This document shows positions 97 through 44,495 of a stretch of 64,000 nucleotides of DNA, one piece after another. The notes beneath the pieces are model-generated. The model was not told the origin of the DNA, did no database searches, and saw only the letters and a program-made list of their open reading frames with translations. Each line of letters begins with the position of its first letter. The first letter of the stretch is position 1. Origin of the DNA: Pelecanus crispus (lineage: Eukaryota > Chordata > Aves > Pelecaniformes > Pelecanidae); contig NC_134655.1 in NCBI RefSeq assembly GCF_030463565.1, positions 2,554,372-2,618,371 of the forward strand, given 5' to 3'. The translations under genes and the position numbers were made by a program.

Positions 97-155
97 GGGA
101 ACTCCTATGAATCTAAACTTAAAAACGGGTAGAGGCTATGGAGCATCTGCTTCAG
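97..155 (+). CDS. FIP1L1: FIP1-like exon a (first exon in window)
   Basis: The acceptor is TTTTCCATATAG and the donor is CAG/GTATTG. It encodes [19 protein letters not shown], matching the family stretch G-T-A-P-V-N-L-N-I-K-T-G just before the Fip1 conserved domain. It starts in phase with one leading base, so at least one more coding exon lies upstream of the window. Confidence 0.88.
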
Positions 156-3100
156 GTATTGCTGTTATTTTTATCCTTCACCTTTTGCAATATTTCACTT
201 ATCTAGCACTGATGGCTGGAGCAGCTGCAAATCTTGGTCTCTGTTTGGAAGGACATAAAATTAGCACATCTTATTTAAACTAGGAATAGTAGGTGCGTTT
301 CCTAAAGATAAGCGCTCCTAGGACAGTCTGAGGGTCTGGGGTGCAATGGAATGATTTAATTACCCACCGCTGAAGAAGCTGATTATAATTCTATTTAAAC
401 TAGAAAAAAAGACATTGATTATTACTTTTATAGTAAAAAACCAGAATATTTCTAAACTATATTGTTTCACTAGGGCCAAACATTCTAAATTGCCTGGAGA
501 AGAACTTTTAACTCTGTGGTCAGTATACTCAGCTACTTGCAGTGTAAGATACTAAAAGAAACAAACTCTGGCCTTGCATATTTCTGCAGACGAAATTTTC
601 CCCACCATTCAGTTTAGTTTATACTGTATATTGAGGCTTGGATTCCGTCCTTCCTCGTATGTGAGACTGTCCTTTCATGGACTTCGTATACTTCCTTGCA
701 TTCATTTCTTTATGCAAATGACTTATCTTCTGGTTGAAAAAAATAAGAACAAATTCCCCTTGAAGATTCTGTACCTGACAGATTTTTGCTGACTCCAGTT
801 AGTACACAGTCCACTTAAGACTAATCCTGAAAAAGTCTCTTGTTATGAGAAAAATGTGTGTATCTTGGGAGGGAAAAATAAATATTTTGCCTGGGGACAA
901 TAATAATTTTTTTTCATTTGGGGTAAATTTCATGCATGCTCTAACAATTTACTCTGTCTGTAGTACCAGTCTGGGTTGAATTTGCTTCTCTGCTGTTCAA
1001 CTGCAAGTGCTGTATACCCTGGCTATTTATTTATAGAATGACTGAAGTAATTTTTATGAAAAGTTGATTGTGGTTACCTACGTGCTATAAAGGCAGCAAT
1101 GAATTCACAGTAGCACTTTATTTTTGACTGGTGTAATTTACTCAGCAAATTAGTGGATTAAAGGCATTGCATTAAAAGTAGTAACGGTTTCTCTGTCTCC
1201 AAAGCCAAGTTGCAGCCCAAAGGTATTGACTTAGATGCCGCAGGGAATATAAATGGATTGCCTGTTATAGAAGTGGATTTAGATTCATTTGAAGACAAAC
1301 CGTGGAGGAAACCAGGTGGGGCCTCACAGTTTCTTGTGGTAAATACTTTCTCCGGTTTTAGTTGTGTCTCTTTAATTTCACATGTAATTTCTGTCCATTT
1401 ACTGCTGCCAGGGAACAGGGAAATCAGAACAATGCGTATTGCTCAGCCTCTGATGCCTGTCTAGACAATCAGTGACATTTACTGATTGATCAAGCCATGC
1501 TTCTACCTAAAATTGGGTTGCATTTACTCTATTAGTTTAACTGCCTTGAAGGGAACAACTTTTTTTTTTAATGTTCCATTTTATTAATTCCCTAGTTCCA
1601 GAAAATATTGCACTGATACTGATATGCTAATGTTTGTTGGCCTTAAAGTCAATTGAGTAGGATCAGGATGTGGCTGTTGGTGATGTGTGGTCTCCTCTTC
1701 ATGTGCAGCAGCTCGCTTATTCTGTCTCACTGTGGCCAAGCTCAGAGTCATCCCCGTGCACCCTTCTCAGTTGGGTCCTGGGGATGTCCACACTTCTGCA
1801 GGGAAGTACCCCTTGCAGAGGGCAGCGACGGTGGGAATTACCATGCGAGCCCATGTCATGACAGGAAAGCTGCCTGTTTGTGTTGAATTCTCCTGCTGCA
1901 AAGAATTGAATAAAAGGAAGGAAAACACTGTCTACTCTGACAAGAAAGGCTAGGATTTTTCTTTCAGAAAAGCTGCATTGCCTAATACTTTGCTAGATTC
2001 TGCCCCTAGGTGCATGATTGCGAGTGAGCAGTTCCCACTTATTTTTTCTGGACAAATATTATCTAGACTGTGTCCAGACATATAGTGCTTTGCGCAGCAG
2101 GTTTTAATATGTACATGGTCCCTTTTGTCTTCCTGATTACTATTAGGGAGATTTCTACTCAGTAAGCGACTCTTGCATGACAGCTGTAGGATGCTACAAA
2201 TAAACTTCTGGTTTTCATCTGAATTTGATACAAAAGTAAATGAAGGAACCATAAAGATCCAAATTTTTGCTGTGCTACTGTCATAAAACATGCTATGATG
2301 AAATGCTAACTGAAGCAAAAAATCCACTTGCCTCTTCTCAGAAATACTACTTCTCCCCGCCAGCCCCTGTGCTTTATTTACTTTTCAGAAATATTGCTAT
2401 GCTAAGTAAGTAGTGCTTTTATAAGGTTGTCTGCAGTGCGTATTTGGTATCTCTTGCCCACCTGAAATGAAGAGCATCGGAGTACATGACAGTGCTGATA
2501 ACTACATCAACGTGTCATGGTATCAAACCAGCACTAAAGCTCTCTGTGATGAATAGTAGCTAGTACAGACGTGATAGAAAATGTAGCCTTTCTTCTGCAG
2601 GGGATTTCCCATCAACTGTGAAATGAGAAAGAGGGGGCTAGGAAGAAAATAAGTTAGAAGGAAAACAATGAAGTGAAGTTCAGAGATAAAGCATGGAAAT
2701 CGTTGTGGTCACGCTGACATCCCTGGACCAAAATGAAGCCAGCTAGCCTTAAAACAGTGTTGAAGTACGAATAGAGGGAAGATGTCTGCAGAGGTGTGGC
2801 CTGTAAGTTTATTTTAGATGGCAAGTAGCTTGTTACTCAACAGCCTTTCAGGTTTATATCCTTTAAAGTTAATTGTTCAGCACGTTGTTTAAGTGAGGGA
2901 CAGGAAGAAGAAATACAGTGTGCAAGAACTGATAAAGGGCTGAAATATAGGCTGATAAAATAGATATGTAAATGTCATGTTGCTGAGTCTGTGTTGGTGA
3001 AATTTGCATATTTGGGTGGTACAACAGGAAGAGCGGCCTACCTAGAAGATAAACTTAAACCTTGCTGTGTAGATGCTAGCTCAGCACGGTCAAAGGGTTT

Positions 3101-6100
3101 TACTTAGCCCTTATGTATCAGCTCCTTCTTTTAGAATGGGTCTGTGTAGGACTACCTTTGAGAGGAGGATGTTTGAGGGACACCTCAGTAGGGCCAGGAG
3201 ATGCTTTGTAATGCTTCCTGTTGTGAGGTACGCCTTACAGAGCTAGCTGCAGCTGTGTTTGTCTCTCTGCATCTACGTTTTCTTGGCAAGCAGTTTGTGG
3301 CCGCCTCTCTTACTCAGAAGTGCTCATGCTGAATTGGCACATTTCACAGAAGACTGTCAAAGTAAGATAACAATCTTGGAAGGCTATAGTTAGGATCATG
3401 ACTAAACTGTGATTACTTGCGTAGTCTGAGACATATCAATAAAAACTTCCACTTTAGCCCCGTTTCACAAAATGGGTGAGTCCCAGAATCTCTTCTCAAA
3501 ACAGCAAAGGCAATGATCGTCGGGAGCAGAACATGTTGGCTTAGCTCTGCCAAGAAAACGGTTCTTTGGCACCATCCTGGTTTCGTGGTGGTAGCTGGAA
3601 CCGTCATTCCTGTGCTCTCCCCAGCACTCAACTCATTTGGACTATTGGAAGAAACCAGTCTGAAAAAATCCAGTTGGTGAATAAGTGGTTGCAGGCATGT
3701 CTCTTAATAGCCTGCATACGTGCTGTATTCTGTCCCAAATGGTCCCACTGCTGTTCAGGCTGTAGTCCCCCTCCCACAGAAGGGTGCAGCCATCTCCGCT
3801 GTGGCACACACCAGCTTTCTGACAGAATGAAATGGAGAGTAAGCTGTGTTCTCTAGAAGATTCTTGTTTTCTTAACTCTTCATTTAAGCAGTTAAAGGAC
3901 AATTTGAGAATGCAAGTCTGCTAGAATCCCTATGTTAACTTCTACTCCCTTTGTTAGGTGCTGATCTTTCTGATTACTTTAATTATGGATTCAATGAAGA
4001 AACATGGAAAGCTTATTGTGAAAAGCAGCGACGGCTTCAGCTTGGACTGGATCCTGCTCCTCCCATCAGCACTGAAAATAAGATCACGGTAGGTGACGTG
4101 TTACTCCTGCATATGGCTACAATAAAACTGGGACTTGTTTTTGTAATCACAGAGATGAGAGTATAAGAGCAGAAGATACCTTAATACCTAACTGTTCTGT
4201 GTTCGTTTCAGTGATGAGAAACATAAAAATGTATCTTTAAAGATTAAATCTCTCTGCTGAAAATCTTTTCTCTACAGAACGAACAGTTCCAGCTGCCTGA
4301 CAGGTAGCTCTACAGTAGCAAGACTTGAGTGAATTTCCAGTTGACTTTGAGGCTGTCCAGCCATAGGGGTGTCTGGTTGGAAGATCCTGTGGATGTGAGA
4401 GGTGTAGAGAGGGGAGCTGGGCATCCATGGCTGTTTTGCTTGGTGCTGTTGACGGTTGCAGTTGTGTGGCTGCCTTTTGCGTTTGGAGACTGCTTTGGCC
4501 ATCAGCCTTTGCAGAAGTCCATCAGGTGGCTGACAGCTGTTAATCAGAACTTCAGCCAAAGAGTCAATACAGCAAGTATTACTATTTCCAGTTTTGACTT
4601 AAGGACTACGTGAAACAGGATACGAGATTATTAAACTTTTGGACTTCTAACAGGACACAGTGGACAGCAGGCTGAGGCTGGAATAGCCGGCTAGTTTACA
4701 GAAACGTCTGCCGCCTTGACCGAAGAATAGGTTGCTTGTTCGCAAGAGCCCTGTTATTGTTCCTCAAGGGAGCCCTTTTCCTTTGCTGTGAGTTATTCTC
4801 TGATGCTACGTTCAGTTGAAAGTAAAGGCATTAAACCTATGTGTTACGTATTGCCTTCCATAGGTTCAGCAAGGAAGAACAGGAAATGCTGAAAAAGAAG
4901 TGGAAAACAACATCATCAAAACAGAATTCAAAACGGACTTCTTGGCTCTGGTGGGAGGACGCATGAAGGCTGGGCCTCCTCCTAACAGGTAAGGGACGAT
5001 GCAGACATAAAGCCTGTGTGCACTGTGTTCTTCATAGGGGTAGCTGGGATCCGCCTGGGCTGTATCTGCATCTCCTCCAGCCTGAAACAGGAGAAGCTTT
5101 TAAACTTTACAGGAAGCTACGGTGGTCACTCAGTAACTGTTGTCTTCAGCAGTGCTATCCTGAGGGTTGTGCAACCTTTGCCTGCCTATTTGCCTCTCCT
5201 TGGTGATATCCTCAGCATAGTGCTGTGCAGGGAGGGAAACCTAGATCCCAGCTGAAGGGGCACATCTCTGGGAGTAGAAAAAAACAAGGCAAATACCTCA
5301 GCTTTGAGGGCTTACATTGCTGGCTGCTTATGCTTACTTGGCTTATTCTTACTCCCACGATGTTAATCTTTGCCTGCTGAAGTGGATTACATGTTTGGCA
5401 GCTGATAAGAGGAGCTATTGGTTTCTGAACCTGTGTGCTGCGCTGTTTGGTGCTTGCTAATTACTTATTTTCTCCAATGAGAGAGAGGATCCAGAAGGCT
5501 GGACAAAGCAAAACAATTGAGTCATTTTGATGGGCAGCCTCTGCTGGGAAAACCACGTTGACCTTACAAGGCTGATGGGTTTTTATCAAAAGCTTCAGAA
5601 AAACAACGCTGTGAAGAACAACTTTGGGATCTGGGTGTTTCTGTTGCTTTATTCACATTATATCTTTTGCACACCTGTCTTGCAGAAATCAGTCTTGCAT
5701 TCCAACTTTTCACTTTGTCTGAGAGAGAACCAACTATCTGCTTCAAGTATAGGCTTTAAAGATCTACTTCATTGGTTTGCATTTAAGCACTTTGCTGACA
5801 TTTCTGTCCCCCTTCATAGTGCCATCAAAGCAGTCAGGTTTGTTTCCAGCTGTTAGAGATTTTCAAAAATCTACACCATTGCAAAATAAGCCGATGCTAT
5901 TGTAACTCTACAGCATTTTTGTCTGTTTTAACTTGCAGTCTGGTTTTGAAAGTACTGACACATGAGGTTCTGTTCGTGCAGCAGAGCTTTTGGTCAGGAC
6001 CAGAATGAGTATCTTCATACACTGCAGCAGCATCAAAAACCATGGGCTTAGCAATGAGTTGGATTTGTTTGGGTTTTTTTGTGTTTTATGGTTTTTTTTT

Positions 6101-9100
6101 ACTGAAACAAAGTGAGCAGATTTCAGTGAGAAAACTTTATCTCACCAACTAGCTGGCATTTTGTCTAAATTTCCTACTGAGATAGAAAATTCTGCTGTCT
6201 AACTTGGAAAAGAGCTGAGGTTTTTCTGTCCTAACTGCAGGAAAACACGTTTAAGGCCATACTTACACAAATCAATTGTTGCGTGACTGTAGGATGAGGG
6301 ATTCCTAAACTTCAGTTGCGGGCACTTCTCTCTCTCACAAACGGTTACTTGTGGTGACCTTACAATGAGCTCCTATAAAAATGTTCTTCCCCCAGGTGTG
6401 ACCTGGGTATGGAGATGAAAGAACAGGGAAAGTTGTAGGTTCTGTGACTGATTTCCTCTAGTGCATAGACAGCACTGTTTCTTGGCTATATTAATATATT
6501 TTTGCTCAAGGATCTGGCCTTGATTTCATTGAAGGCAGTTGCAAAACTTTTGACTTTAATAGAAACAGAGTAGGCCCCAGGGAGGCAGGCTAGAAAGTGT
6601 CTGAGAATCTGATCTGTAAATAACTTCAGTGGTATCAGCAGCACTTGGAAGATTGGACAGAAAGCAGGAAAAATCTGGTCTGATAACATTAAAGGCTTCT
6701 CCTGATAAATATTCTCCACTTTCTCTGAGCCTGATCTGGGAATGATTATTCAAATCTGGAGAGCGAGTAAAGGATTTCAGTTCTGAACCAGAGTGTGCAA
6801 TCTGTTACTATGCTTGCATGTGGTAATGCTTTGGATCATGTTTCTAGGTGTTCAGAGAGACCTAACTCACCCCTGCAAGCAGAGCTCAAATTGCTCAAAA
6901 GTGAAAAAGGACTTCTCATTCACCTCTTGTCCAATTTGAGCGCTGCCTCTAGAGACTTTTTTCCCTGGTGGAAAAGAATCTATGAGAGAAGTCTGTCTAA
7001 TAGTGGGGAAAACTGCTCCTTCTAATGTCTTTGAGCCTAAAAAGATGCATCTGCTTTGTACCAGGAAGCTGGGTGGGACAATTGATGTGATCGGTGGCCA
7101 GGCAGGCACAATTAGGAGAGTAGAAGGAAGACGTCGTGATAAGCATGCCTCCGAGGAAAACCCAATTCAGGTAAAGTTTTGCGCCCTCTTGACAAATTAC
7201 TGATTTTATTGCACTTCTGGTGAACCCTGAGCAAATGTCTGTGCATTCCTGACCTCCCATGTCACTGTTTCTGTCTGCAAAGCAGTAGGTAGTATATCAA
7301 CCCTGTCGAGGCGTATGCATGTATCGTTCCCTTCTGCAGGTCGAATTAACTTCTGTGTTAAAAGCTTTATCTTGCTAGGAGCTAGGATTGTCCTTTAAAG
7401 ACTAGCCTTCCCATCTGAGTGGTGAGGCCCAAGTTCCTTTTCTCATCAGCTCTCCCAAAGTATTCTTTGGGGTGTGTAGCTGGGAGGCTCTTATGTGGAT
7501 TATTCCCTTCCCCTCCACTGTCAGGTTGGAATCTCCAGTTCTGCAATGGAGGATTTCTACTTGGGGCTTGTGTTTCTTTGTACTTTGAAGTAACATTTAG
7601 TCTAAGCATCGTTAGATGCAGCCCGCTCTTCAGGCTTAGGGTGGGCCTGTGTTACTGGATCTTGTCTCTTACAAGAAATAAAAGCCTGGGGTTTAAAACG
7701 GGGCTCCGTTCTGATCTTGCATGTCCAGTGTATGACAGTAACGTTCTGGTTGGCTTCTAGGTAGGAAGCTGCTATGTGTAGGGTTTGAGGACCATCTGCC
7801 AAGAACTCTTCTCTTAACCACCTTCCTCCTAGCAACCACTCCTAAATCACGAAAAGAAAAACCCAAATATGGAACCTTTCCCCTGTCTAGATGCAATTCC
7901 TCGTTTTGTTTTTACATGTGTTTGTGGTCTGTTTATTTTTTTTAGTGGTCGGTTTTCCAAATTTTGCCTACAATGGCCCCAAAAAAAGAGTTTGCCTAAG
8001 AGAAAGAATTTGCTGGGAAATGGTTGTTGCTCCTCCCACTTACAAGCATTGATACCTGTATTTCCAGGTCATTCTGGTATCTCTGCATATCGATCATTCC
8101 TTCAGCAGTAGTGGGTATGTGACCTGCTTTTGTCAGACAGATGTGAATCCAGTCTTCCTTTGACCTCCGTGGGCACAACCTAGAGCAGAATTTGGCCTCT
8201 TGCTGCCCTCGGGAAAGATAAATTGGGTTAAAAGAAAAAAAGGAAGTGCTACTGTGTCACCCTCAAATATGGCAGCTTTTAATCTGAAGCCTGTGTCGGT
8301 GGCAGTTCCTGTGAACAAAAGGTGATCGTAACACTGAAATGTCAGCTGTCTTGCACAGTTGTGTATACAGCTCGAATCTCGTCTCGCTGCTGTTCTGCGT
8401 GAGAGAAGATACCTCGCTAAGTGTGTTGATTGCTTTGATCAACCTTCCTTCCTCCCCAAAAGATGTTATCCCCTGGGTATAGCATGGCCTGGTCTTTCCA
8501 GGTATTGCAGTGCTGCCTGGTTTGGTGATATGCTCCCTTTCTGCCAGCACAGCGAGTGAGGTCGTAGCTGCAGGAGCCAAGAGATTAAAATGCTCTCTTC
8601 TCGTTCCTCTGCCTTCTAAGGTCCTTGGAGACCACGGAAGTAAGCCACAGCCCCCCCAGCAGCCCCAGCAGCCATCGCAGCCCCAACAGCCACCTCAGCA
8701 GCAGCCGTTTGCACCACCAGCAGGCCCACCGCCTCCCCCGCTCGCTGGGCCACCTCCACCACACTTCCTCCACCCTCCTCCACCAGTTACTTCTGTTCCA
8801 CCTCCCCTGCATCCTCCAGGTACGTGTTCACACGGCAATGGACGGCAGCCTGAGGCTGCAAGCTAGGACGTCCCAGGCTCGCAGCGAATCAAAGGTTTAA
8901 TCGGTAGGTGCTATGGGACAGTCGAGCAATCGGGTAACAGGTCCTTACACCTGGCCAGTCTTTGTTCAGTGTTTCCATCACCCTGTTTAGCATTTGCCCT
9001 TGCTGCAAACGTGGCAGCTGTTCCTTGGAAAAAAACTCTAGGCTTTGTTCCCGTGAGCGAGCCTTTGGGTGCTACCAAGCCATTCGCTTTATTGATAAAT

Positions 9101-27173: not shown

Positions 27174-27309
27174 TCACACGAGGCTTCCCGGCCAGGACAC
27201 CACAGTAAGCGTGACTTTGTTCCTTTGCTCCTTCAGCATTGGGATTAGTTCCGAGTTGCTCATTCCTATCGCTGGCACTCCGTTTACTGCCACTATTTCG
27301 TCTCCGCAC
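27174..27309 (-). CDS. LNX2: LNX last coding exon: end of PDZ4 and C-terminus
   Basis: The acceptor is TGTCTTCTCATTAG. It encodes [19 protein letters not shown], then [20 protein letters not shown] and PGSLV, followed by TGA at 27176-27174. The last residues PGSLV equal the LNX2 C-terminus, whereas LNX1 ends differently. Confidence 0.95.
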
Positions 27310-30300: not shown

Positions 30301-33300
30301 CAGGGAGCACCTGACAGTTGTTGCAGAAAGAGCTCAGACTTCACGGAGATGGACTTCAGGTAAACCTCAAGGAAGAAGGCAGGAGGAAAACTGCTTTTCC
30401 ACCCCCTGAGAATTATCCGTAAGCCTCGCTGTGCACGGTTACTGTTTTCAAGTGTCAAAGCTTTTACAGGGAAAAGATAAATCAATCTGTAAACTTGGTA
30501 TTTCTGCTATCTTTAGGATTCAGTGTGCAATGACTTAGGACACCCCCCGCCTCCAAACCAGCATTTTGAGACAGTATAAAATACTACCAGTAGCTGGTAT
30601 TGATTTAATACAATACTATGAAGAAATCAAGTAAAGTTCCTACGCTATCTTCTGTGACATAGACAGTGATGATGATAAGCATTCAGTAGCAATAAGTAGT
30701 AGCATACAATTCACTGGGAACACTCACTGCTACCATTAATAACAAAGCAAAGAATGGAGAAAAAGTAAGTTTACAAGGACAGCAGAGCTACTACAGTTGT
30801 ATTACAAGACAAAAAAATCCAAGAAAGATACCAGCCACTTCAGTACAGCCAATACTAGTTGCCTGAGGTTAGACAGAAAAATATTACTACGCTGTTCCTC
30901 TTACAGGGATGTTTGTATTTTCATTGGAAGCGCAGCACTGACCATGGTCGGCGGTGGAAGATGCTCCAAGCTTACACACCAAATGCTGTGGTGTGAAAGT
31001 AGCCTTAGGGGCACAGAGTGTTTTTCTTCTAGGAAGAACGTGACCAAGATGCTCCTGTTATTCCCTCTGTTACCCAGGGTCCCAAGAAAGGCGCAGGACC
31101 AGGGCTGTCACCTCTCTGCTAAAACCCTTCTGCCACAGCAGCCTGGCGCATTACCCACGTTCTGCAGGGGGGGCTACAGGGGCCCCACGTTTCAGAAACA
31201 GCACATCACCAAGCACACCGAGATGACAGGCAGCATTTGACATAAACAGAAAACCACAGATAGAAGAATCGAGGCTGGAATTAAACACTGTGGCCTCAAG
31301 TTTTGCAATGGCTGAATACACTTCCCTAGCCTTCAGCACTAACTTTGACTCCAGTCTTTCAGCATAAAGTTTGGCTTCAAACTAGAAAGAAATGGGTTTC
31401 CTCTAAGGACAAAAGGATATTTCTGCTGGATCGGAGTAGTAACTGGAAAAAAGAAAAAGCTGAACAAAACCAAAGTCGCACACGCCATCAGCAATAAGCT
31501 TTAAACTTTCACACCGTACTGCAAAATGTTTTAGTGTACTGAGGCTACGTCTGCTTTAGCAGGGCAGCCCAAAAGGAACAGATCCAAGTGGAGTAACTGG
31601 TGCTGAGGACACAGGGTCTAGTTTTGGTACATTTCAGGGGATTTTCTGTAATCTGATGTTAGTGTGGTACACACAGGGTCTGTTCGTGCCAGAGTGCAAT
31701 GGGCACTCCTCCACAGCACTTCTGGTTTGGTCCCATTCAAAAGGAACCCAGTTTGCGCGGGTCAAGGCCTCTCTGCAATGTGAACTAAAAACAGCAAGTG
31801 AGGACAACTGGGATTCTCACTTCAACAGCGCATTCCTGAGCCAAACAAAAATGCCAGCGTACAGGCACCCTGAACATTTCCAGGTGACAAACAAGGGTGC
31901 CATTTCAGTTTACAGATTCTCAAGCAATAATTAAAAATAATATGATTCTGCCAGCTACAGTGTCAAATATAAATACCTCGCTTAGCTGAAAAAAGCAGAT
32001 TCTTAGTGGCTTTAGGGAAATCACTCATTCTGTGGATGACCAGCTAGTTGCTACCAGGTCTTATTATGAGTGGATGGGAAAATGAATCATAGAATCATAG
32101 AATCATTTAGGTTGGAAAAGATCTTTAAGATCATCCAGTCCAACCAAGAGTGGGAAAGCAGAATTACAGCCATTTTTACTACTGGAAACAAGGAGGAAGA
32201 TTTTGTCAGATCCTGAAATGACATAACCTTGCTTTGTGCCTCCTAACCACCCTCACACCCACAGAAGAACGGCAGACAAATTCAGATGCCTGAATTCAGA
32301 TCGGAGGAAGAAAGGAAGACTGAAAAGCAGAAAGGGCATCTGACATCATTGCTCCTTGCTTCAGTAGCAAGGTACAGTAACAGTCAAATGAAAGGGGGCC
32401 GACATTAATACCGGCAGCAAAAGAATTTCAAGCAACGTATTAAATGGCAGGTAATATTGGTGTACTCTTGAAACGAAGGCAGGTGACCAGTGAGCAGAGC
32501 AGACTCCAGTCCCTGTAGCAGAAAGGACGAGGAAGCTGCAAGCCACCAGCCATGCAAATAAATTGGAAAAGGAAGAAGGGAGAAAGCACAGCCAGGTTTT
32601 GCCTTGCTATACTTCACTGCAGGAGCACCCACGAGGAACAAACGCCAGCCAGTATCCGAGGGTTTGTACGAGGGTTTGGGCTATCCAGGTGCAGCTCGGG
32701 CTAGTTCATACCAGGCCTGTGCAGAACAGACAGGCTGATTCCCTGGGAGAGCAGAGGAAACTGGTAGGACGGTGCTGAGTACAAGCCAAGTTACAGTCGC
32801 TCGAGACACAAAAGCTACCTTCCTTGGGCTGTTTGTTTAGCATTTACAGGCTGCTAAGTAACGCAAGGGTAATGTAACAGAGGCTTTGTTAGTATTTCTT
32901 CTTTCAGGTGCCTCAAGAAACAAGGCTGTAAATAACCTGAGCTTCCCGCAGAAGGGTTTGGCTTCACCGTTCCACGTGCATCTCCTGCACGATCCTCCTC
33001 CAGTCAGCTGGAATGACAACAGACTCTGCCTTTCACAGCTGAATGTATTTTGATGAAACTGCAAAAGTGACCAAACCAGAGGTTCACCTCTCCAGGAAGG
33101 AGTAGAAATTCAAGCTTTCAAAGCCCCAACCCTCTCATCTGGAACTTTCCACGTTGCTGCTAAATCTGTGCTAAGTCCGAAGCTTTGCAGTAGGAAAACT
33201 CAGCTATTCAGAATTGTTTCTGCTTCGTGCTAAAGATGACACAATTACGACAGCCAAAAAGAATCAGACTGAAAGAATGCCTGCCCCTAACTGAGATGAT

Positions 33301-36300
33301 CAGATTAGAAACTATAAAACAGCACAGGTATCTGTTGGCTTCTGTTATGCGATCCGGAAAGAGCCACAGAGCGATTTCAGTTAATGATATCTTAGCAGAG
33401 ACTGTATCTACATTGACTGTCAACTCAGTGCCTCAAGTGCCAGAATCTATACTTCTCATTTTCTGTGTCGGTTCTCTCAGGAAAAAACAAAAAGGTTTTC
33501 AGGACCTTCTGAAATATGGTTACCGTCCAACAGAAGTGGGGGAACAAGGGGTCACGCCATAAAAAGCAGTGGAAGTTTGTTACGCATATATTATACTGGT
33601 ACCTCATTGACAAAAAAGGCCTTCCGCTGCCTTAGAGCTAAATGAGAATACCAGCAAGGCTTCCAAATCAACCAACAAAGCAATTAATTTCTAGTGTTTG
33701 AGTGAAAGTCAGCTCTGTGACTGAACAGATGTCTATACAGTATAGTCACCAGACAAACGTACCTGGGCAATCCGAGCCATGTGATCCAGAGGGGAGACCA
33801 GCTGAATCCTTGCTCCTTGATGTCCAGAGATGGCTCTGTCGAGTTCAATGAAAGGATTTCCAAGGCTTTCAGTACGACTGAGTGGGAAGCTGCATTAGAC
33901 TTCAGTGCTGAGACAGCTTCATAGTAGTTCAGATGAGTCAAATCAATGCCATTTATGCTCAAAAGTACATCTCCTGTTGATTAAATAAGATAGGATTATT
34001 ACAGACCTTTGGCTATGAGGCCCATTTCTGCCTCAGGGTCTCATGTGGAGCACTGCTTCCAGCCTCACTTTAGTGTCCAAGTCCAACTTCCACTGAAAAA
34101 AACCCAGTTCCTAAAGGATAAAGGGTCCGAGAGCCTCCTTACCTCGCTTGATTCTGCCATCCCTGAAGAGGCATCCGATGGGCTGCACGCTCGTTACATA
34201 TATAGGGAGCTTGTTTTTGTTATCCCTTCCACCTCCAATTGTTATTCCTAAAGATTCCTTTGGTTCCTTTTTTATTGCGACCGTCTTTTCGTGACTTACG
34301 TATCCCTGAGGTAAATCCTACAAAAGGAATGACAGTACAAAATGCACCTTCATTAATGCAATTAAGAGGAGAAGCCCAGATCTGGGAGAAAATAACAGAA
34401 CATCTTGTATCCTTAATCCAGATGGCAAAGTCAGCTTCTCATGTACTTGTTCTGGGCAGAAATACTACCCTGTATTTCCAAAGTGATACCACCACGACTG
34501 AGGCGCTGCTCTCCTAATGATCCCACATTCATTTGCTGTAGAGATGCTCGCTCTGAGAACAATTTTGCACTGAGGAACAAGCTGCAAACTCATTTCAAGG
34601 CTATTCATATCAAGCAATCAACCTCTCTGACTACTACTAAATGTTTAGGTTGTAGTGAAAGCACACGTTACAGCATATGCTGTAGAAACAGTATGTAAAT
34701 TATATTCTAGGATTAAAGTCAAGGAACCACACTCCAGCCATTTATGACAGCTGCTTAGAAACTCCAGAGACATTTAAACACGAAAGTCTAAGCAGCAAGT
34801 TTTCTCACTCAAATGGAAGTTCTAAACATAGAGCAAATCTCTCTTTGGTGCAACAGACTGGCGAGTCTCCTCTTGCTCATACTGTTTCTTATAATATGCA
34901 AGCAGGTGGCAGACGCAACGCTGAAGTCACAGGAGCACTACAGCGTAATTGCTGTAGTTTCTACTTCTGTACCATAAAGCCGTCTAGCTCCAAACCAGAA
35001 GCATAACTTAGCGTCATCGCACAATGCCCTGAACGTGTTGTGCTCGACGGATGTCAAGAAGCAAGTCCAAGCGTCTCACGGATGGTAAATTTCCCATGGC
35101 CCTTTCCAGACACGAAAGGATTAAACACTGGTCCTGCATCAACATTAGAGACTTTTGAAGAAATTTTGACATATTTTTCCCTAAAAAATGTGTTCCCCAG
35201 TAGACGACAAATGTACAGTTCTCCAGTACCAAAAGCCACAAACCTGCTGCTTTTCAATAGTTCAGGAAGAAATGGAGCTCCTGATCTGTCTTACATGATA
35301 AATCACCATCACAGAGCAACCATAACAGATCTGCTAGACCAAGAAAAACCAGCGCTTTTGCCGTAATTTACAAAACTTACCTTCTGGTAGTTAGATTTTC
35401 GTCTATAGTGATTCTGGTCTAGTCGTCTCCGATGGTGCACCGGGCTTCCTCCATTGCTGCTGCTGCTGCTGCTGTTATTTGATGTGCTGCCATCTTCTAC
35501 TGGGTCCGACAGCTGCACGCCTGGCTGCCTCAAGACGACAAAGTTCACTCTTGATTCAGTGGTCTGCCAGAAGAAACAAAAAGAGTCTAAATAAAATAGA
35601 TAGAAAACTAAATCAGAAATTAGGGTTGGCCCCTGTCATTTTCGTGGGGAGAAGGGTTGGCATCGGTTTCTACAAAGGGTCTGAAACAGGGCTATGCAAC
35701 GAGATGCAATGTTTTTTGTGAAGAGCCACAGAATCCTATGGTGAAAAGAAAAAAGGAATTAGCAAATGTTAGTCAGAAGGAACAGGAGTAAATGCAGGCT
35801 TCACTCATGCCTCCCTCCCCCACAAATGCCAAACAAGAGAAAGTGGAAAGGGATGATTAATCCCTCCGCTTCGGTACAGATAACCAAAATAGCATATTGT
35901 GTTGTGATACAAAATGAACAGAGGTAGAATGCTGACTGGTCCACACGATGGATGACCAAGATACGAGCACTGAATGCTTTTTCTTTTATTGTAATGAAAC
36001 TTGTTAAAGCTCTTTCCCTCCCAGCTTACATACCACGTCTATTGTTCAACATCTCCCACCCATTTTTTTTTCCCAGAGTACCTGAAGCCATGACCTTTTG
36101 TCAAAGACTGCTGCTAATTGAACACTTAACCAGCTGTATGTCTGGCCTTGGCAGAACTACAGGGAAAGTATTCACTATTGTTACTTCTCTTCTAATTTGG
36201 TTTGTTCTTTGAGATAATTTGACAAAACCTTATTGTGAAGGACTCCATTGGGGTAAGGCGTATGTGCTTTCTTGGGGCACTTCCTGCAATGGATGAGAGA

Positions 36301-39300
36301 AGTACAGTTGCCGCTCTCATTTCTTGACGTCGGACCCCATTTCCCTGGTGCCACAGCACGCTGGCAGCAGTGAATTCCCTGCACTTGGAAGAGGGACTGC
36401 ATCAACTGTCTTTTTTTTCTCTTTTTAAACTAGTACAGGGGAGTTTTGTTTTCTGAAACAGAATTTAAAAGCCTCTTGCCTCCAAAGTCACATCAGATAG
36501 AGCAATTTTTTTCCAGACAAGTTGGCACACATCCATGTCTTCGTAAAATATATTGTAAACATCACGTCCTAAGACGGGGATTTGCCATCCCCTTCAACCA
36601 GGAGTACCAGACTATGTACAGAACATATAGCTGTGCATGTGTATATACATAGCTGTAAATGGTACTTTACAGTACAGGTAGCAGGACTCTTTCCTGCAAG
36701 TGGTTTGCAATCGAAATTAAAATTACATTTAACCAAGAATTAGAATTAGCCCTCAGAAGAACAGATAATGTTTGGAAGACTGTCACAGTTTTACACAAAT
36801 GTCACTTCAAAAGGAATTCAATCCCCAAACCTACTGAAGCTGGTTCTGAGACTTTGGTTACTGATTTCAGCGGGATCAAGGAAGAGTTCCTCATACGGGA
36901 GTTATGCTTGCACATTACAACAGAAATACAGAAGCACTTAATGGGAGGTAAACAAAATTCTAAGAGGCCATAGAATGGAATCACATATATAACATAAAAA
37001 GGATCTCAGTACTGGAACTCTGCTCTTTCTCTTCTTTTCTCCCATGCCACTGCACTCCTCTGCTGATTACCAGGAAGAGAACTGGCTCTCCCTCACTGCT
37101 AACCTCAGATCCTTTCCGGGATATAAACAGTATGTGATGAGATGTATTGTGTCAGGATCTTTAGATAAAAACAGAAACTGGAGGTCATAGCCTAGGGAGA
37201 TAAAGAATTTCAACTGATCTACAAGATATCTGCTGCACACGTAGCAATCCTTAACCAAAATTCCTTGCCCACTCCTTTCGCCAAAACATTCGGCATGCTG
37301 CAACAGGAGTGCATTCCTATTGCACAGGGAAAGACCACCTCTCTTCTGCCCATTGAATATTTTAGAACATTTTTAGCCTGAGGTGCCTCATGTTGTTTTC
37401 CAGAGTCCCTTCCCAAATACAGGTAAAATGGGGAGAGAGGGCTTCAAATCACTCAAAAGGGTTCTGTTCTGTGCTGCCAGCCTACCACATCTCCCAAACA
37501 CCTTCAGTTTGACTGTTTGAAGCACGAGAAGCTGTCCTAATCTCTCCTAATTTCTCTGCTGCGTGCATCTACACAGTGCATACGAATATTCACTCTGCAA
37601 GAAAGGCTCCAAACACCACACCACAAAGGAGATCCAACTGCCTTAGCTGAACTAAAGTGCCACGAGCAACTGCCTCGCTTCAGACTTGTCAGAGATGACT
37701 CACAATGGATTCCCACTCTTCATGTTTATCTTCATTTGGAAGCCATGCTTCCCACACATGCGCAGGGAAGTCACTTTCCCAAAGACATATTTCAGGGAAT
37801 GCAGTTTGCTCTAGTGTGTTCTGTTAGCCCTTGGGTCAGAACAGGAGGCCTGCCATCAACGCAGACAGCTGCGGAGTCATTAACCACAGAACCTCACCAT
37901 GTCATAAATTACCTGGATTATCTGGGCAGCAGCCTCAGGTGTTCCTTGCCTCAAATCCTGGCCATTTATTGACAGGACTCTGTCATTCCGACTCAGCTTT
38001 CCATTTTTGGCTGCCAAACCTCCCTCTAACAGATCTAGAATAAAAATCCCTGCCTCGTCTGTCTTCCTGATCAGTTTGATTCCCAAGGGCTCAGATCGGT
38101 CTCTCTTTATCAAGGTAACGTGGATCACTTCACGATTTGTAGCGGCAGTGGAATCCTGCTGTGCAGTCTTATTGGAAAAACCCTTCTCCTGCAGGACCAT
38201 GAGGTGGAGAACAGGACCTGGGTGGCGCAGGAAGGAGACAGCTTGGCAGTGAGTCACACTGCTGATGTTGACGCCATTCACCTAGAAAGACAAACAAACC
38301 AGAGTTGCTAATCGGAACCTACTTAATTTAGGTACTGTCCGCAGTGCGGAACATCACGAAGTTGGAGACAGGGTGGACAACTTCCTGTGCAATGCCGTGA
38401 CTGAAGCAGCTGCTACTGATGCACGTTAGAGAGCAGAGTTTTCTAAAAAGGAATGCAGAAGAAAGCAGATGAAATTAGACAATAACTGATGGCGAATAGC
38501 TGAGGACAGGGACAAGACAGGACAACTTGCATAACTAACAAATCTGAAACTGCAAAACACTGAATCATGACATCCATCCCACGGCAATGCAGAAGTGATT
38601 TCCCTTAACTTCCAGCGTTCAATACACGCTTGGAGGAAAAGACTCAAACTGGAGACTCCCCACCCTCACTTTTAAACTGAAGAGTGGTCCGTAGTCTACA
38701 GGCTTCTGGAATCATCAGTCTAATCATGCTTTTACCAAGGTAACTCTGAGAATCTACTTTTCGCTTTGTCTGTTGTCACATAAGACTCTGTGCAGTCTTC
38801 TTTTAGAATGTTAATAGGGCTGCTAAGTGCAGGGACCTGCCCTACTTACAGCCCAGTTAAGACTGAGACATGTACAATTCAGCTGGAGAAAACAGAAGTT
38901 ACTCTATTGGTCTATCTAAGAAACCAACTCGGAGATCGTATCGGCCACTTTTGCATGTGGGGCTGCCAGTCTGGACTGAAGTCCACAGTCCAACAGGATA
39001 ATTAGGTCTTTATGGCTTGATTGGGCAGCCGTAGCCGGGAGGTGCTAACAGTTCTCACTGCATGGAGGCTTCACTGCTGCATACAAGCTTCTGTCGCCTC
39101 GATCAGCCCACCGCCATGCAGCGCGATTAATCTGGGAACTAATCTGGCCGTGGGTATGAGGTTGGTGCTCTTTATTACTCACATTACATATCTGATGCTT
39201 ACTTCGAGTCATAAGGTCTTAAACTGTGGACCTGCCCATTGAGAATATGCACCTTAAGAAACATAGCAGAGCAACCAATTACAAGACTTCCTAACTAGAG

Positions 39301-42300
39301 CACAGTCCTTTGGAGAGAAAAGGTGCTACTGGCTGAAATTTATCAGACAGAAATCTTTTTCCTTTATCCAAAATGCTATCAAATGTGCAAGGTAAATATG
39401 AGTGTGACTGGAAGGAACCTCAAAAGTCTGCTTCTCAGCCCCAGCAGATACACAATGCTGCTGACACACAAGTCTGATCAGTGCTTTTAAACCCTCAGCT
39501 ATAGAGATTTCCCAGTTTTTCTAGGCAACTCTTCTTCCCGAGCCCTCGTCTCAAGCCAAGAGAAGCAACTGGACTACCAGTGGGGTTTTACGTACCTCAA
39601 GAATATGGTCCCCAGGTGCTATTCTTCCATCTGCAGCAATGACAGAATCCCGCAAGACTTCCTGAACAACAATGTTTCCTAGTGGGGTGTCTTTACCCCC
39701 AACTATCCTCATCCCCAGCTCTTCCTCCGGGTCTTCTCGATGAATTTCAATTGTGGTCGTTTCAGCCACAAGACTAGTTCTCTGAGGAAGGTCTGATTGT
39801 GGAAATTGAAGAGAAAAACCAACACATTAATAGAATTTTCCCTCACATAGCACCACAAGATTTGTAACACTGGCAGGTTGTGTTCAAAGTAGCATCTGGA
39901 GGGAAAGCAGCTGTCAGGAGAGGAAAGAATAGGTCAGATTAAAAGCTTAGAAAGCCCCCGTTTCTGTACGGTTTCTCCAGAACGTTTCCTATGTTCTCCT
40001 AGCTTAGGGCAAATTTAAACTCTGTCATTATTATTTCTTGAGCTTTATTAAAGGGCATTGAGTATGTTTCACTTACCATTTAGAGATTTATTTTTCTACT
40101 GTGACAGCTGGCCTACTGGAAGTGCACACATAACAAATGCCAATTTCCGCGATGCCCATTAGAAAGGGGACTGAGCTGTAATTACTGCTCTGCCGTTGGG
40201 GTGACTTTACCACAGGCAGCTCACTGCAACTTCCCCCCTCTAATCAACTTTCCTCCTCTTTTCCCATCCCCCTGTAAAACAGGAGTAATGTTTACCTATT
40301 TCACAGCATACTGAAGACTAAGCAATGCTTCTCAGACACTTTGAAGATGAAAGTTGTTGTTAGCAGGTTGTATTAAAATCTACCACTGCAACATTTAGGC
40401 AGGCCCAACACTCTAATGAAGCCAAGCGCACTACCTGTCAGGGTGAACTGCAGTTGTCACACAAGAGATGCAAAACCTGCCGCAAGTGTACTTCGGGGAA
40501 AAAGCCAACAGAGAAGTAAACTGACCTGTGTATTAACTCTGGCATAGGCACGGCAGTTGCCAGCTCCAGCGCCCGCACGCTTGGAAACTGAGACTAACTT
40601 TGAAACAAGGCACGGAGATTTCCACGCTGCTGCCTTCTAGCAGGGGTTGAGACAAGCGGTTCTATACTGGACATGGTTACTTTTATCTGCAAGGGTTTTA
40701 TAACCCAAAAACTAAGTTATGCTATAAAAAATACACTTGCTGCACACCATTAGGGAGGTACTGACCACTCCAGGAAACTGTATATTTCACTTTCTTACCA
40801 AGATTAAGAAGAAGCTGGAACATTTCCTAATTACTAATTATGCAGCTTCTGCAAGCACTTTAAGTGCTGCATGTTCCTACTGACAGGGACTGCCCTTGTT
40901 CCTGCAAAGAATACTGCAAATATTCACTGCAGTTTAACAGATTCTCCAAATTGTTTTGCACAGACAGTTTAGTGCTTGTGAGCACATCCTGCCACACCTG
41001 ATGCACGTGAATGCATCTCCCTTCTGCTCAAGGACAAGCTGAGGAAAGAGGTTACTCTGATGGCTGCTAATGGCTGAATAGCATTGAGGATATCTAAGAA
41101 TGTTGGGGACACTTTCAAAAATTGAATTGTCTGAGGTAATTACCTCATTTTTCTGTTATAAAAGGTAATTACATTTCTGTATCAAACTCTCACCTTCTTC
41201 AGTCTCCTCAAAAGCTGGATTAACCAGTCCCGGCTCTGCAGTCCCCAGCGATACCACAGCAGCTGCAGAGCTTTCTGCCACAAGTGACGATCCTCCACTT
41301 GGTACCTCGGGATCCTTGGGCGTGTTTGTCTCCACCTTGGTAGGAGGATCTTCCTTCCCTTTGCAAATGGGATTCTTTTTCCTCTGTAGTTCAGATTTGT
41401 ATTTCTTGAAACCAGGACACCTAGAGAGAGATTGTCAGTGACCGTAAGTGGCTAGTCTCTGCCTGCGCGGTTAACCTAGCACATGCAAGCTCTGACTGAC
41501 AAAGGTATGTCAAGAAGCGTGTTCAAGATCTCATCAGCTGCCAAGTTTGTATCGCAGATGCTAAAATTTATTCTCATTTGAACTTCAGCTTCTACTTGTA
41601 CTAGTATCAGCTTCTGAGCGGGCTTGTTATTTTATTACTTTCAATACTATTATGCAAATGATTTAAAGGAGAACATAATAGGAGCAGGAGTCTCCCTTGC
41701 TAACTATTTACCTGGCAAACACTCAGTGAAGAAAGCACTACCTCTTAAAATATAAGCAAATGCTTAGCTCTGCCCTTTTAGCGATGACTGTGAACTGTAT
41801 CTTTATGCAAAGCAAGTGGCTCAAGTTTCAAGCTCAACCTTGAATTAGGCTTTGTTTTTAACCAACCAGTAACATGCAAGAGCAGCAAGCGAGGCTTGCT
41901 TCTTTTTTTTGCTGAATGAGACCTGGCCCTCAGACGGCGCTCCACCTTCAGTCCACGCAGGTGGTGGCTCTCCTTGAATGGGAGCAATTTAGAGGAGCCT
42001 ATAATCCCACTGACTGCTTCCCACACAGAGGTTCAAGAAGTAATTCCACATTCAACAAAATGCGCTCTGTATGCAGCTACACCACAGCCAGCCTCTCTCA
42101 GCAAAAATGAGCGAGGAAAAACAAGCTCTTTTTTTAAGAGTACTTATAAAAAAGGTGGCAGGTGAGGAGGGTGATGACTGGAAAAGCATCATTTTGAGAG
42201 ACATGAGTAGTATTGGGTGTTTACCAGAGTCGCTTTTCAAATTAAACTCAACTATTTACATTCTGGCTAAACAAGTCTCATCCCAGTATTACTTCCTCTG

Positions 42301-44433
42301 GTTTATTACTAGTTACTTATTCTCCAAGCAGTAAGATGACCCTGAAACTTAAAACCAGAAGCTGATTGATCCATTTGTGCACATGTCCCCCTTAAGATGT
42401 CGAGAAACAAATTCATTTTGCAAAGGGCAGAGAAATCCCCCAACAAAACAAGTTTCTAGATGCTTCATATTTCCTTAAGTCTCCTGCTATCAGTTAATCT
42501 CACTTAAAACTAAACAGCAGGAACATCCAAATCCCAGTGAAATTTTTTTCTCATGTTTTTTTTCATTTGTCAGTCTAACTGTGCTCACAGTCCTGGTGAA
42601 ATAGCCTCAATTTTTAGAACACACCCTCCCCAAGGAAGATACCAAGAACTATGAAATGTGTAAGAGAATGATAATAGTTTCCAGTCAGGTCTCTAACGTA
42701 AACATTTAAGGGTGCCTCTCTCTTCTGTGTTTAACTCCTGTGCCAGAGGGATTAAGAAGTGACAGAAGTTTACTGACACCAGAGTAGATTTACAGAGCAG
42801 AGAGGAAGGCCCAGCCCCAGTCTGGGCCATGGCCCCAGCTACCCAACAGCTGCACAACCGGGCAGCCCTGTCCCCATAGTCCAAGCATTCAGCCCTGCCT
42901 GATAAGAAGCAAGCAGTACAAAGAGTTAGTTCAAGAAAAAGGAGATTATGAGCTTTCACAGATCGAGGGAAAGGGGCACATGAGCATCTTCTGTCACTTC
43001 CCCTGACTCCAACACAAGCTCTCAGCTTGTGGGTACCAAAGACGAGCAAGAACCGCAAGGATACGTCCTAGGCTGGAACTGCAAAGGTATCCTAAGCGTA
43101 ATTGTTCCCTGCACACTGCTTGGCCTCTTTTTAAAATAGGGTATTGCCACAAAAAGCTACGACATAGCTGAAGAGAAACAATCCTGTTGCATTTCTCATT
43201 GCCCACTGACAAAGTACACACTGCCAATGAAGGTCTGCTTCCGCCCGCAGTAGGCCTTGTACTTAGCTCCCTTCCCTGCAATCATTAACTAGGTAGGAAC
43301 AAGTGTTCTTCAAATGCCGTGGCAAGAGCTCTTTGTCACCTGCACTTCTTTTAAAGCTGCAATATTCTGCCTGCCACCAGTTCAACCAGCAGTGGAAGCA
43401 CCAAAACCCATCTCTGCTGACAAGCGCAAGGAAAAAAAAAAAAAAAAAAAAGTATTTTTCATTTGCTTCTCTTTCTCAGCAAAAGAAAGAGAGAAGATAA
43501 TGGAATTATAAGTAGGTGATTCAGCAACTGCATAATGTGCAGCTTGGAGGGACTTACATTATTTGGATCAAAGACTTATGTATTGCACATCTTAATTGGA
43601 CCAATTAAACTGGCAACACTGCACGATCCCTTGCTTCCAGAGTGTTGACTTTGTGCCTGTCTTTCTTCTCTGTGCAAGTGAAACAAGAATAAGCATGTTT
43701 ATAATAATTTTCAGAGTCAGGTGCCCCAGATCAGGACACACAAAATTATATACATTTGATAGGTTTTGTGTCTGCAGACGACTTGCATGCAAGCAGGCAG
43801 GCACCTCATGCTTCGCGTCTGTAGCACATGTGAGCTGGCCTCCCTAACACACGCACGCACAATTACGCTGTCCTCACCCACCCACCTCTCTGGCCTCACC
43901 CTCTGTCATCTTTGGTGCCCCATCTTGCCCCAGTTTAAGAACTGTTCTGAGAATGGACCTTTCGGGTCAAGAAGCACAACAGACAGATGGCATTACACAA
44001 GGAGCAATAACATAATGTAAATGGGAATGCACCTGTTCTGCAGATGAGCTTCTAGTTCACACCGCTGCATTGTCTGCTGACATTCTGCCTTGAAAGGACA
44101 GAAGACGATCAGCTTATCCAACAGGTTTCGTACTAGAAGACTGGACTTGTGGCACTGCTGGAAAGAGAGCTTTTTCCGATCCATAGGACAAAAGTTATAC
44201 TCCTGCATGAAGTTTTCAAGGCACTTGAAACAGTACGTGTGTCCGCAGGGGGTGTCCATAGGTTGGAGCAGAGGCTGAAGGCAGATATGGCAGATGAGCT
44301 CATCGTCCACATCATCCTGGAAGTTGTAGAGATGATTGTCCAGCAAGAGGTGGAACTGGCCACATTCGCAGCAGAGTTCGCTAACTTGGGACACGTGTTC
44401 TTCTGCTACGGGATCAGCCATGATAGCCAGCAT
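27174..44433 (-). CDS. LNX2: LNX2-type E3 ubiquitin ligase (RING + 4 PDZ), 9 coding exons, complete
   Basis: Exons in mRNA order: 44433-44033, 41420-41194, 39792-39596, 38281-37913, 35563-35381, 34317-34143, 33973-33763, 28822-28664, 27309-27174. All have GT-AG borders and consistent phases, and sum to 2058 nt (685 residues), close to the usual LNX2 length. Domain order: N-terminal zinc-binding CECGQ-H segment, C3HC4 RING (about residues 46-87), C-terminal zinc finger, Numb-binding NPAF motif (about 201-204), and PDZ1 to PDZ4 ending in WPGSLV. Known of the family: LNX proteins ubiquitinate Numb and bind many membrane-protein tails through their PDZ domains. NPAF and the WPGSLV end are LNX2-like; LNX1 has NPAY and a different C-terminus. 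By eye it is more diverged from LNX2 than I would expect for a bird orthologue, so it may be an LNX2-like ohnologue. The FIP1-like gene lies 3' to 3' with it. Confidence 0.94.
27436..27488 (+). mobile_element. CR1 LINE 3'-terminal fragment
   Basis: TAGATGGAAGATCTTAAAGG, then TCTTTTCCAACCTAAACAATTC, ending in TTCTGTGATTCTA, is the CR1 3' end in plus orientation. It lies in LNX intron 8. The preceding 70 bases may be an older part of the same copy. Confidence 0.8.
28664..28822 (-). CDS. LNX2: LNX coding exon 8: PDZ4, first part
   Basis: The acceptor is ACGTGTTCTTCACAG-like (pyrimidine-rich, ending TCTTCACAG) and the donor is CTGAA/GTACGT. It encodes [20 protein letters not shown], then [20 protein letters not shown] and [14 protein letters not shown]. 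The loop is SWGF, as in LNX proteins. Odd: where LNX1 and LNX2 have D-G-R before L/I-K/R-C-G-D, this copy reads D-R-K. Confidence 0.94.
28823..33762 (-). other. LNX2: LNX intron 7
   Basis: A 4.9 kb intron splits the PDZ4 region from the WSP-W linker exon. It contains the short CR1 fragment at 32085. No additional exon with family similarity was found. Confidence 0.75.
32085..32146 (-). mobile_element. CR1 LINE 3'-terminal fragment
   Basis: AATCATAGAATCATAGAATC, then TTTAGGTTGGAAAAGATC and CATCCAGTCCAACCA, is the reverse complement of a CR1 3' end. It is very short, a heavily 5'-truncated insertion, in LNX intron 7 and in the same orientation as the gene. Confidence 0.85.
33763..33973 (-). 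CDS. LNX2: LNX coding exon 7: end of PDZ3 and WSP-W linker
   Basis: The acceptor is TTAATCAACAG and the donor is CCCAG/GTACGT. It encodes [20 protein letters not shown], then [19 protein letters not shown] and, after a linker, [14 protein letters not shown]. The W-S-P-x-W-x-x-W-L-G-L-P linker before PDZ4 is an LNX family hallmark. Confidence 0.94.
34143..34317 (-). CDS. LNX2: LNX coding exon 6: PDZ3, first part
   Basis: The acceptor is CCTTTTGTAG and the donor is GCGAG/GTAAGG. It encodes [19 protein letters not shown], then [20 protein letters not shown] and [19 protein letters not shown]. The loop is SLGI. KKEP-ESLG and P-G-C-L-x-R-D-G-R-I-K-R match LNX2. Confidence 0.94.
35381..35563 (-). 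CDS. LNX2: LNX coding exon 5: end of PDZ2 and Ser-rich linker
   Basis: The acceptor is TTTCTTCTGGCAG and the donor is CAGAAG/GTAAGT. It encodes [15 protein letters not shown] (last PDZ2 strand) and a linker with [11 protein letters not shown] (an AGC run) and [22 protein letters not shown]2 also has a Ser-rich linker here. Confidence 0.92.
37913..38281 (-). CDS. LNX2: LNX coding exon 4: end of PDZ1 and most of PDZ2
   Basis: The acceptor is GTCTTTCTAG and the donor is ATCCAG/GTAATT. It encodes [18 protein letters not shown] (end of PDZ1), a linker, and PDZ2 from [20 protein letters not shown] through [18 protein letters not shown] and [17 protein letters not shown] to AAQIIQ. The PDZ2 loop is [16 protein letters not shown] is an LNX2 signature. 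Confidence 0.95.
39596..39792 (-). CDS. LNX2: LNX coding exon 3: PDZ1, first part
   Basis: The acceptor is TCCACAATCAG and the donor is CTTGAG/GTACGT. It encodes [20 protein letters not shown], then [20 protein letters not shown] and [15 protein letters not shown]. The carboxylate-binding loop reads ELGM. TTIEIHR and NIV-Q-E-V are the LNX2 variants at these sites. Confidence 0.94.
41194..41420 (-). CDS. LNX2: LNX coding exon 2: linker with NPAF motif
   Basis: The acceptor is CTCTCTCTAG and the donor is GAAG/GTGAGA. It encodes [17 protein letters not shown], a polar linker and [19 protein letters not shown] is the LNX2 form of the NPXY/F motif bound by the Numb PTB domain. The surrounding E-P-G-L-x-N-P-A is shared by LNX1 and LNX2. 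Confidence 0.93.
43433..43452 (+). repeat. poly(A) tract
   Basis: A run of about 20 A in LNX coding intron 1 (between the RING and NPAF exons). No attached retroelement was recognised. Confidence 0.8.
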
Positions 44434-44495
44434 CAGGCACTCTCGGCCCAGCAGCGAAGCAGCTTGTCACGTAGCAGCTGTCTGACAGAGGACCT
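44033..44495 (-). CDS. LNX2: LNX coding exon 1: zinc-RING-zinc module (5' UTR part 44434-44495)
   Basis: The acceptor is the pyrimidine-rich TCTCCTTTTCGTTAG before 44495; the donor is CAGAACAG/GTGCAT. Coding starts at ATG 44433 (weak context, C at -3) or at ATG 44421, which has A at -3 and G at +4 and is the better start (MADPVAEEH). Seen: CECGQFH and NHLYNF, then RING cysteines and histidine in [24 protein letters not shown] and CPMDRK, then CPFKAEC and [13 protein letters not shown]. All RING ligands are present. Confidence 0.95.

Follow-up and report, generated by a model that had tools for sequence, protein, structure and literature searches.

The stretch of bird DNA analysed here (64,000 nucleotides, C13:2554372-2618371, hereafter the window) almost certainly contains, judging from its sequence, the proto-X-inactivation-centre gene pair, i.e., the orthologues of chicken Fip1l2 and Lnx3 (= LNX2b, matched by the published description), and both genes appear to be protein-coding. 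Xist and Tsx, which belong to the switch silencing one X chromosome in placental mammals, derive from this gene pair, and the locus shows its still-coding form, a pre-decay state that can serve as a baseline for reading how a regulatory RNA arose. Three parallel gene clusters identified in the same genome also bear on the published date at which Fip1l2 joined the block.

Gene models were built from stop-to-stop reading frames, tblastn with human proteins and splice sites. The genome searched comprised 1.31 Gb in 310 contigs, and the flanks were searched over 100 kb on either side of the window (264 kb in total) with human protein queries. The FIP1-family gene, FIP1L2, was detected on the + strand (97-20764), with 11 exons visible that form a single open frame of 444 aa. 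All junctions were AG/GT and the exon phases were consistent throughout; the 5' exons fall outside the window and the visible gene is partial.

97-155, + strand: FIP1L2 exon a, first visible exon
1205-1315, + strand: FIP1L2 exon b, Fip1 motif region begins
3958-4088, + strand: FIP1L2 exon c, Fip1 motif
4864-4988, + strand: FIP1L2 exon d
7065-7170, + strand: FIP1L2 exon e
8621-8819, + strand: FIP1L2 exon f, proline-rich
13375-13432, + strand: FIP1L2 exon g, proline-rich
13974-14029, + strand: FIP1L2 exon h, candidate by phase consistency, the weakest exon in the model
15431-15629, + strand: FIP1L2 exon i, RE/RD-rich
17547-17705, + strand: FIP1L2 exon j, RS/RE-rich
20632-20764, + strand: FIP1L2 final coding exon, stop TAA

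For exon h, an acceptor at 13978 was dropped because it breaks the frame, and 13974 was used instead. The Fip1 motif is present (Pfam Fip1 PF05182, 1.8e-25) and the closest solved relative in PDB is the FIP1 chain 7zyh_B (4e-33). Two segments of human FIP1L1 (about 23 and 36 aa) had no corresponding exon in 4089-4863 (between c and d) or 4989-7064 (between d and e); as the flanking exons join in phase there, FIP1L2 is possibly shorter at these two points.

The LNX gene, LNX2b, is encoded on the - strand, convergently to FIP1L2, and extends from the ATG at 44421 (a second in-frame ATG lies four codons upstream) to a stop TGA ending at 27174. Its nine coding exons, separated by eight introns, all AG/GT, encode 681 aa with no internal stop.

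57621-57851, - strand: LNX2b exon 1, 5' UTR, CpG-rich stretch, identified by the spliced retrocopy match; 5' end approximate; donor CAG/GTGAGC
44033-44495, - strand: LNX2b exon 2, acceptor TTAG/AGGTCC, ATG 44421, ZnF-RING-ZnF
41194-41420, - strand: LNX2b exon 3, NPAF motif
39596-39792, - strand: LNX2b exon 4, PDZ1 first part, XIST exon 4 homologue
37913-38281, - strand: LNX2b exon 5, PDZ1 end and most of PDZ2
35381-35563, - strand: LNX2b exon 6, PDZ2 end and linker
34143-34317, - strand: LNX2b exon 7, PDZ3 first part
33763-33973, - strand: LNX2b exon 8, PDZ3 second part and linker
28664-28822, - strand: LNX2b exon 9, PDZ4 first part
27174-27309, - strand: LNX2b exon 10, PDZ4 second part, SLV, stop TGA
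39667-39788, - strand: Rfam RF01881 Xist_exon4 match inside the PDZ1 exon, over the full model (positions 1-126 of 126)

Exon 1, which lies in a CpG-rich stretch (56751-58250), is flanked by two very GC-rich minisatellites, at 57085-57391 and 58045-58716. In Pfam, the LNX2b protein matched four PDZ stretches (3.9e-63) and RING (8.5e-8), with the RING metal-ligand pattern at residues 44-81. The best PDB matches, in a listing without species, were to LNX2 rather than LNX, both for the RING (5din with 194.6 bits against 5h7r with 162) and for PDZ2 (2vwr with 110 against 3vqf with 86.6). The protein shows the features of the LNX1/2/2b family, namely ZnF-RING-ZnF, NPAF, four PDZ and the C-terminal PDZ-binding motif SLV; the SLV end is found in LNX2 as well. 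According to PMC7373230, the family is characterized by ZnF-RING-ZnF, NPAY/F, four PDZ and a C-terminal PDZ-binding motif, with NPAF in LNX2 and LNX2b and NPAY in LNX1, and the window protein has the NPAF of the former two and not the NPAY of LNX1; that source, in its account of these features, does not state which paralogue carries the SLV end.

An intron-less copy of the 5' part of LNX2b was found on the same contig at C13:12630796-12631896 (985/1098 aligned bases identical). It spans exons 1 to 4 plus 67 bases at the start of exon 5 and is decayed, with stops and frame breaks. This retrocopy, joined across four exon junctions, shows that LNX2b was transcribed and its mRNA spliced at these points; the match also puts exon 1 within the CpG-rich stretch, at about 57851-57621, and gives 44495 as the acceptor of exon 2. 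With the UTR exon counted as exon 1, the PDZ1 exon becomes exon 4, in agreement with the published numbering, whereas the last exon, published as 11 in the chicken Lnx3 model, is exon 10 here.

Immediately 3' of the retrocopy, and oriented like it, lies a CR1-like stretch reaching to about 12632865. It carries a frame with a reverse-transcriptase match (PF00078, E 0.00027, below the cut-off) and continues into sequence of which many further copies occur in the 264 kb, among them the CR1-like fragments of the window. To judge from its sequence, the fusion looks like the product of a CR1 reverse transcriptase switching from its own RNA to the LNX2b mRNA. A template switch by CR1 has previously been invoked for passerine SINE heads (PMC5729268), and retrocopies are reported to be few in chicken, 78 in one count (PMC3136929); no novelty is claimed for the fusion. 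The 3' end of this CR1-like element recurs in the window as three related fragments, two of them mutually direct and 95% identical (19964-20024 and 32086-32146) and the third one inverted (27440-27491).

The search of the flanks placed the pair in the order two CDX4-like copies, CHIC1, FIP1L2, LNX2b, RASL11C and USPL on C13, and related genes were located on C4 and C1.

C13:2475636-2490179, + strand: CDX4-like exons, copy 1
C13:2499684-2508069, + strand: CDX4-like exons, copy 2
C13:2520397-2538703, + strand: CHIC1
C13:2658831-2651600, - strand: RASL11C (2651603-2652058 in the RASL11 search)
C13:2680020-2696253, + strand: USPL (2680017-2696253 in the USP search)
C4:56386542-56394323, + strand: CHIC2
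C4:56921187-56924441, - strand: RASL11 homologue
C4:56994611-57009399, + strand: USP homologue
C1:203998052-203998504, - strand: RASL11 homologue
C1:204042610-204065858, + strand: USP homologue

RASL11C sits 33 kb past the window, within which the best RASL11 hit among the matches listed had E 2.0, and a WASF3 query detected no WASF exon in the 264 kb; the WAVE4/WASF gene linked to Lnx3 may lie farther away. The tandem CDX4-like copies upstream of CHIC1 are 97.7% identical over 431 nt with exon 1 and 84-88% identical in later exons; given that identity is high at exon 1 and lower after it, they possibly reflect a duplication with later gene conversion. PF10256 was tried as a CHIC profile and discarded: it had three matches, on C10 and C21, and neither CHIC1 nor CHIC2 was among them.

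The Fip1 family (PF05182) had only two matches in the genome, in the window and at C4:56694193-56694279 (-). With the window LNX protein as query, LNX exons besides those of the window gene were found at C1:203848101-203874075 (+) and C4:56590143-56659713 (+), identified as LNX2 and LNX1, respectively, by comparison with the human proteins. Three parallel clusters emerged, which read CHIC2(+) LNX1(+) FIP1L1(-) RASL11B(-) USP46(+) on C4, CHIC1(+) FIP1L2(+) LNX2b(-) RASL11C(-) USPL(+) on C13 and LNX2(+) RASL11A(-) USP12(+), with no FIP1 match, on C1. In the three clusters, RASL11 and USP copies are named here by their position. FIP1 and LNX are convergent in both clusters that have the two genes (on C4, LNX1 on the + strand ends near 56659713 and FIP1L1 lies on the - strand at 56694193), and relative to C4 the pair on C13 is flipped as a unit, the orientations of the CHIC, RASL11 and USP genes being unchanged.

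The relationship of the window LNX to its paralogues was evaluated in a tree of five proteins (window, bird C1, bird C4 and human LNX1 and LNX2; 525 columns free of gaps and X), with the C1 and C4 proteins pieced together from the best tblastn matches, seven exons each. In the human sequences used, the RING of LNX1 and LNX2, PDZ2 of LNX2 and the FIP1 core agree letter for letter with PDB. The best of 15 topologies was ((C1,LNX2),(C4,LNX1),window), which makes the window LNX a third paralogue, and all 14 rival topologies had AU p < 0.01. The window protein was identical to human LNX2 at 329 of the 525 columns, to bird LNX2 at 327, to C4 LNX1 at 281 and to human LNX1 at 275; its RING-PDZ1 linker was marginally nearer to LNX1 (30/83) than to LNX2 (28/84). 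An earlier quartet of PDZ1-2 with PATJ as the outgroup did not discriminate among the groupings (p-AU 0.709 for LNX1+LNX2, 0.389 for window+LNX1 and 0.103 for window+LNX2, the last with a bp-RELL of 0.047, outside its 95% set) and is superseded by the five-protein tree.

These data bear out most of a preliminary description of this DNA, in which an extra copy of the FIP1L1-LNX1 locus had been proposed, possibly from the CDX4/CHIC1 block. Separate FIP1L1 and LNX1 genes on C4 and LNX2 on C1 agree with an extra copy, and CHIC1 with the two CDX4-like copies on the FIP1 side and RASL11C with USPL on the LNX side agree with the block. The facing 3' ends, put about 6 kb apart, have stops at 20764 and 27174 that are 6.4 kb apart, and the end coordinate 44495 coincides with the base at which the LNX RING exon begins. 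The LNX2 class given to the LNX gene holds by identity (378/667 aligned residues against human LNX2 and 321/642 against LNX1), and in the five-protein tree it falls outside LNX1 and outside LNX2. The FIP1 protein, described as diverged, shares 241/400 aligned residues with human FIP1L1; over the 76-residue core it is identical at 59/76 positions both to C4 FIP1L1 and to human FIP1L1, compared with 74/76 between the latter two. The convergent FIP1L1-LNX1 arrangement cited for human is present on C4 too, near CHIC2.

The window might be thought to hold the usual FIP1L1-LNX1 pair in a form that has diverged in this bird's lineage, as both gene families are the same and convergent and the early PDZ1-2/PATJ quartet kept window+LNX1. 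However, a separate pair occupies C4 beside CHIC2, which refutes this reading within the genome itself, and the topologies joining the window gene with C4 or with human LNX1 were rejected (AU 3e-35 and 1e-81), so that practically no credence is left for it. Equally little can be given to an LNX2 orthologue next to a FIP1 gene brought in by rearrangement: LNX2 is indeed the nearest paralogue by identity, and the SH test retained the window gene with bird or human LNX2 (p-SH 0.414 and 0.424), but AU rejected both groupings (0.0035 and 0.0086) and the C1 gene is a separate LNX2, identical to human LNX2 at 486/525 residues, which refutes the reading within this genome unless the C1 copy is misassembled. 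Moreover, LNX2b is itself reported to be most similar to LNX2 (PMC3162930), and the window LNX is likewise closest to it. A decaying or non-coding LNX gene, to which the large introns might point, is very improbable in view of the open frame maintained over nine exons, canonical splice sites, RING ligands, NPAF and PDZ domains. The orthologue of LNX2b, coding and distinct from LNX1 and LNX2, is the preferred reading.

A further link to the X-inactivation centre came from the PDZ1 exon, where the only Xist_exon4 match of the window was located on the LNX2b strand (29.2 bits; E 0.0013 with 2.2 kb searched and 0.023 with 37 kb searched); the Rfam search of 1-26900 gave none. The score is far under the Rfam gathering score of 100 and the unrelated family sno_ZL116 reached E 0.031 in the 1-26900 part, hence the E-value alone is not decisive. 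At the gathering threshold, no Rfam family matched in the window, and the other weak Rfam matches in the window and the PDZ1 loci were set aside as chance. In a local alignment, the printed Xist_exon4 consensus scored 154 at LNX2b exon 4, with 89 as the best on the other strand and 81 as the next on the same strand. None of 300 dinucleotide shuffles of the whole window (top shuffle 120) and none of 1000 shuffles of the PDZ1 exon reached 154. The same consensus scored 53 at the LNX2 PDZ1 locus on C1 and 56 at the LNX1 PDZ1 locus on C4, values equalled by 578 and 415 of 1000 shuffles, respectively, and Rfam detected no Xist_exon4 at either locus.

When translated, the consensus aligned with LNX2b PDZ1 first in one frame (score 42) and in the following part in another (45; GMRI...GK...PLGN kept), as would be expected of a frameshifted coding exon. 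Against human LNX2 and LNX1, it scored at most 21 and 20. The score of 45 was reached by 0/5000 shuffles (best-scoring of three frames), and the LNX2 and LNX1 scores by 1794/5000 and 2549/5000. A single genome suffices to trace the Xist exon 4 fossil to LNX2b rather than to either of its paralogues, LNX1 and LNX2.

The locus was already known, as Lnx3/Fip1l2 and LNX2b have been described (PMC2430539, PMC3162930). According to PMC2430539 (Elisaphenko et al. 2008), chicken Lnx3 adjoins Fip1l2, the pair is known from chicken and frog, exon 4 of human Xist is homologous to that of Lnx3, and Tsx contains exons of Fip1l2; that paper credits Duret et al. 2006. The name LNX2b was given to the paralogue in PMC3162930, where it is reported to have decayed in eutherians and contributed to Xist. 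PMC3695352 traces part of Xist to the decay of LNX2b in eutherians and part of Tsx to that of Fip1l2, with the marsupial Lnx3 frame kept; PMC3164691 and PMC12101419 give concordant accounts of the origin of Xist or Tsx. The retained extra copy of the preliminary description therefore stands, with the connection to Xist and Tsx missed; its loss in mammals was not a simple loss, as in eutherians the genes became part of Xist and Tsx, and marsupial Lnx3 is intact in frame. On the published account, both genes decayed in eutherians and donated exons to Xist and Tsx, and the LNX2b PDZ1 exon is almost certainly the coding counterpart of Xist exon 4.

The age of the pair may differ from the published one. 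Fish are reported to have Cdx4-Chic1-Lnx without Fip1l2, and Fip1l2 to have been inserted in an ancestral amphibian (PMC2430539), and if so the likeness to FIP1L1-LNX1 would be due to chance. Such late joining seems unlikely, since FIP1 adjoins LNX, convergently, in two of the three parallel CHIC-[FIP1/LNX]-RASL11-USP clusters of this genome, which suggests a pair older than the published insertion. The LNX3/USPL/WAVE cluster has been described in chicken, lizard, Xenopus, coelacanth and gar together with two further paralogous clusters (PMC5577775), and the main text of that source, its figure aside, contains no word beginning FIP1. Very probably, the FIP1-LNX unit predates the three-cluster split, Fip1l2 was lost in fish, the unit was later flipped at LNX2b and, in eutherians, its two members turned into non-coding genes of X inactivation. 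Considering the three parallel clusters within one genome, an origin of the pair before the vertebrate genome duplications is favoured.

By analogy with LNX2 and zebrafish Lnx2b, the LNX2b product would most likely act as a RING E3 ubiquitin ligase choosing substrates via its four PDZ domains and binding NUMB through the NPAF motif; zebrafish Lnx2b is reported to ubiquitinate Bozozok and modulate cdx4 expression (PMC7373230). FIP1L2, by analogy with FIP1L1, would most likely take part in pre-mRNA 3'-end processing via its Fip1 motif. For this genome, there are no grounds for attributing dosage compensation to either gene. In the window, no tRNA genes were detected, and ten ORFs picked by eye among 410 had no credible Pfam domain (one UbiA match with E 0.038, below the cut-off).

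Compared with known systems, the FIP1L1-LNX1 pair on C4 resembles the window pair in both gene families, in convergence and in the proximity of CHIC, RASL11 and USP genes (CHIC2, RASL11B and USP46), and differs in the opposite orientation of the unit and in sequence, the identity being about 59/76 in the FIP1 core and 281/525 in LNX. With Fip1l2 of chicken and frog, the ancestor of Tsx, the window shares a coding FIP1 gene between CHIC1 and Lnx3, and the gene order on C13 is that published for the proto-XIC as far as that account goes (PMC2430539). A coelacanth clone with Cdx4 and Lnx3 has been reported as well (PMC4471637). The window LNX2b corresponds to Lnx3 of chicken, marsupials, frog and fish, the ancestor of Xist, in its RING, NPAF, four PDZ, SLV, Xist-like exon 4 and location in the same block, and this locus differs from the known Lnx3 in the two CDX4-like copies and the CR1-fused spliced retrocopy on the same contig.
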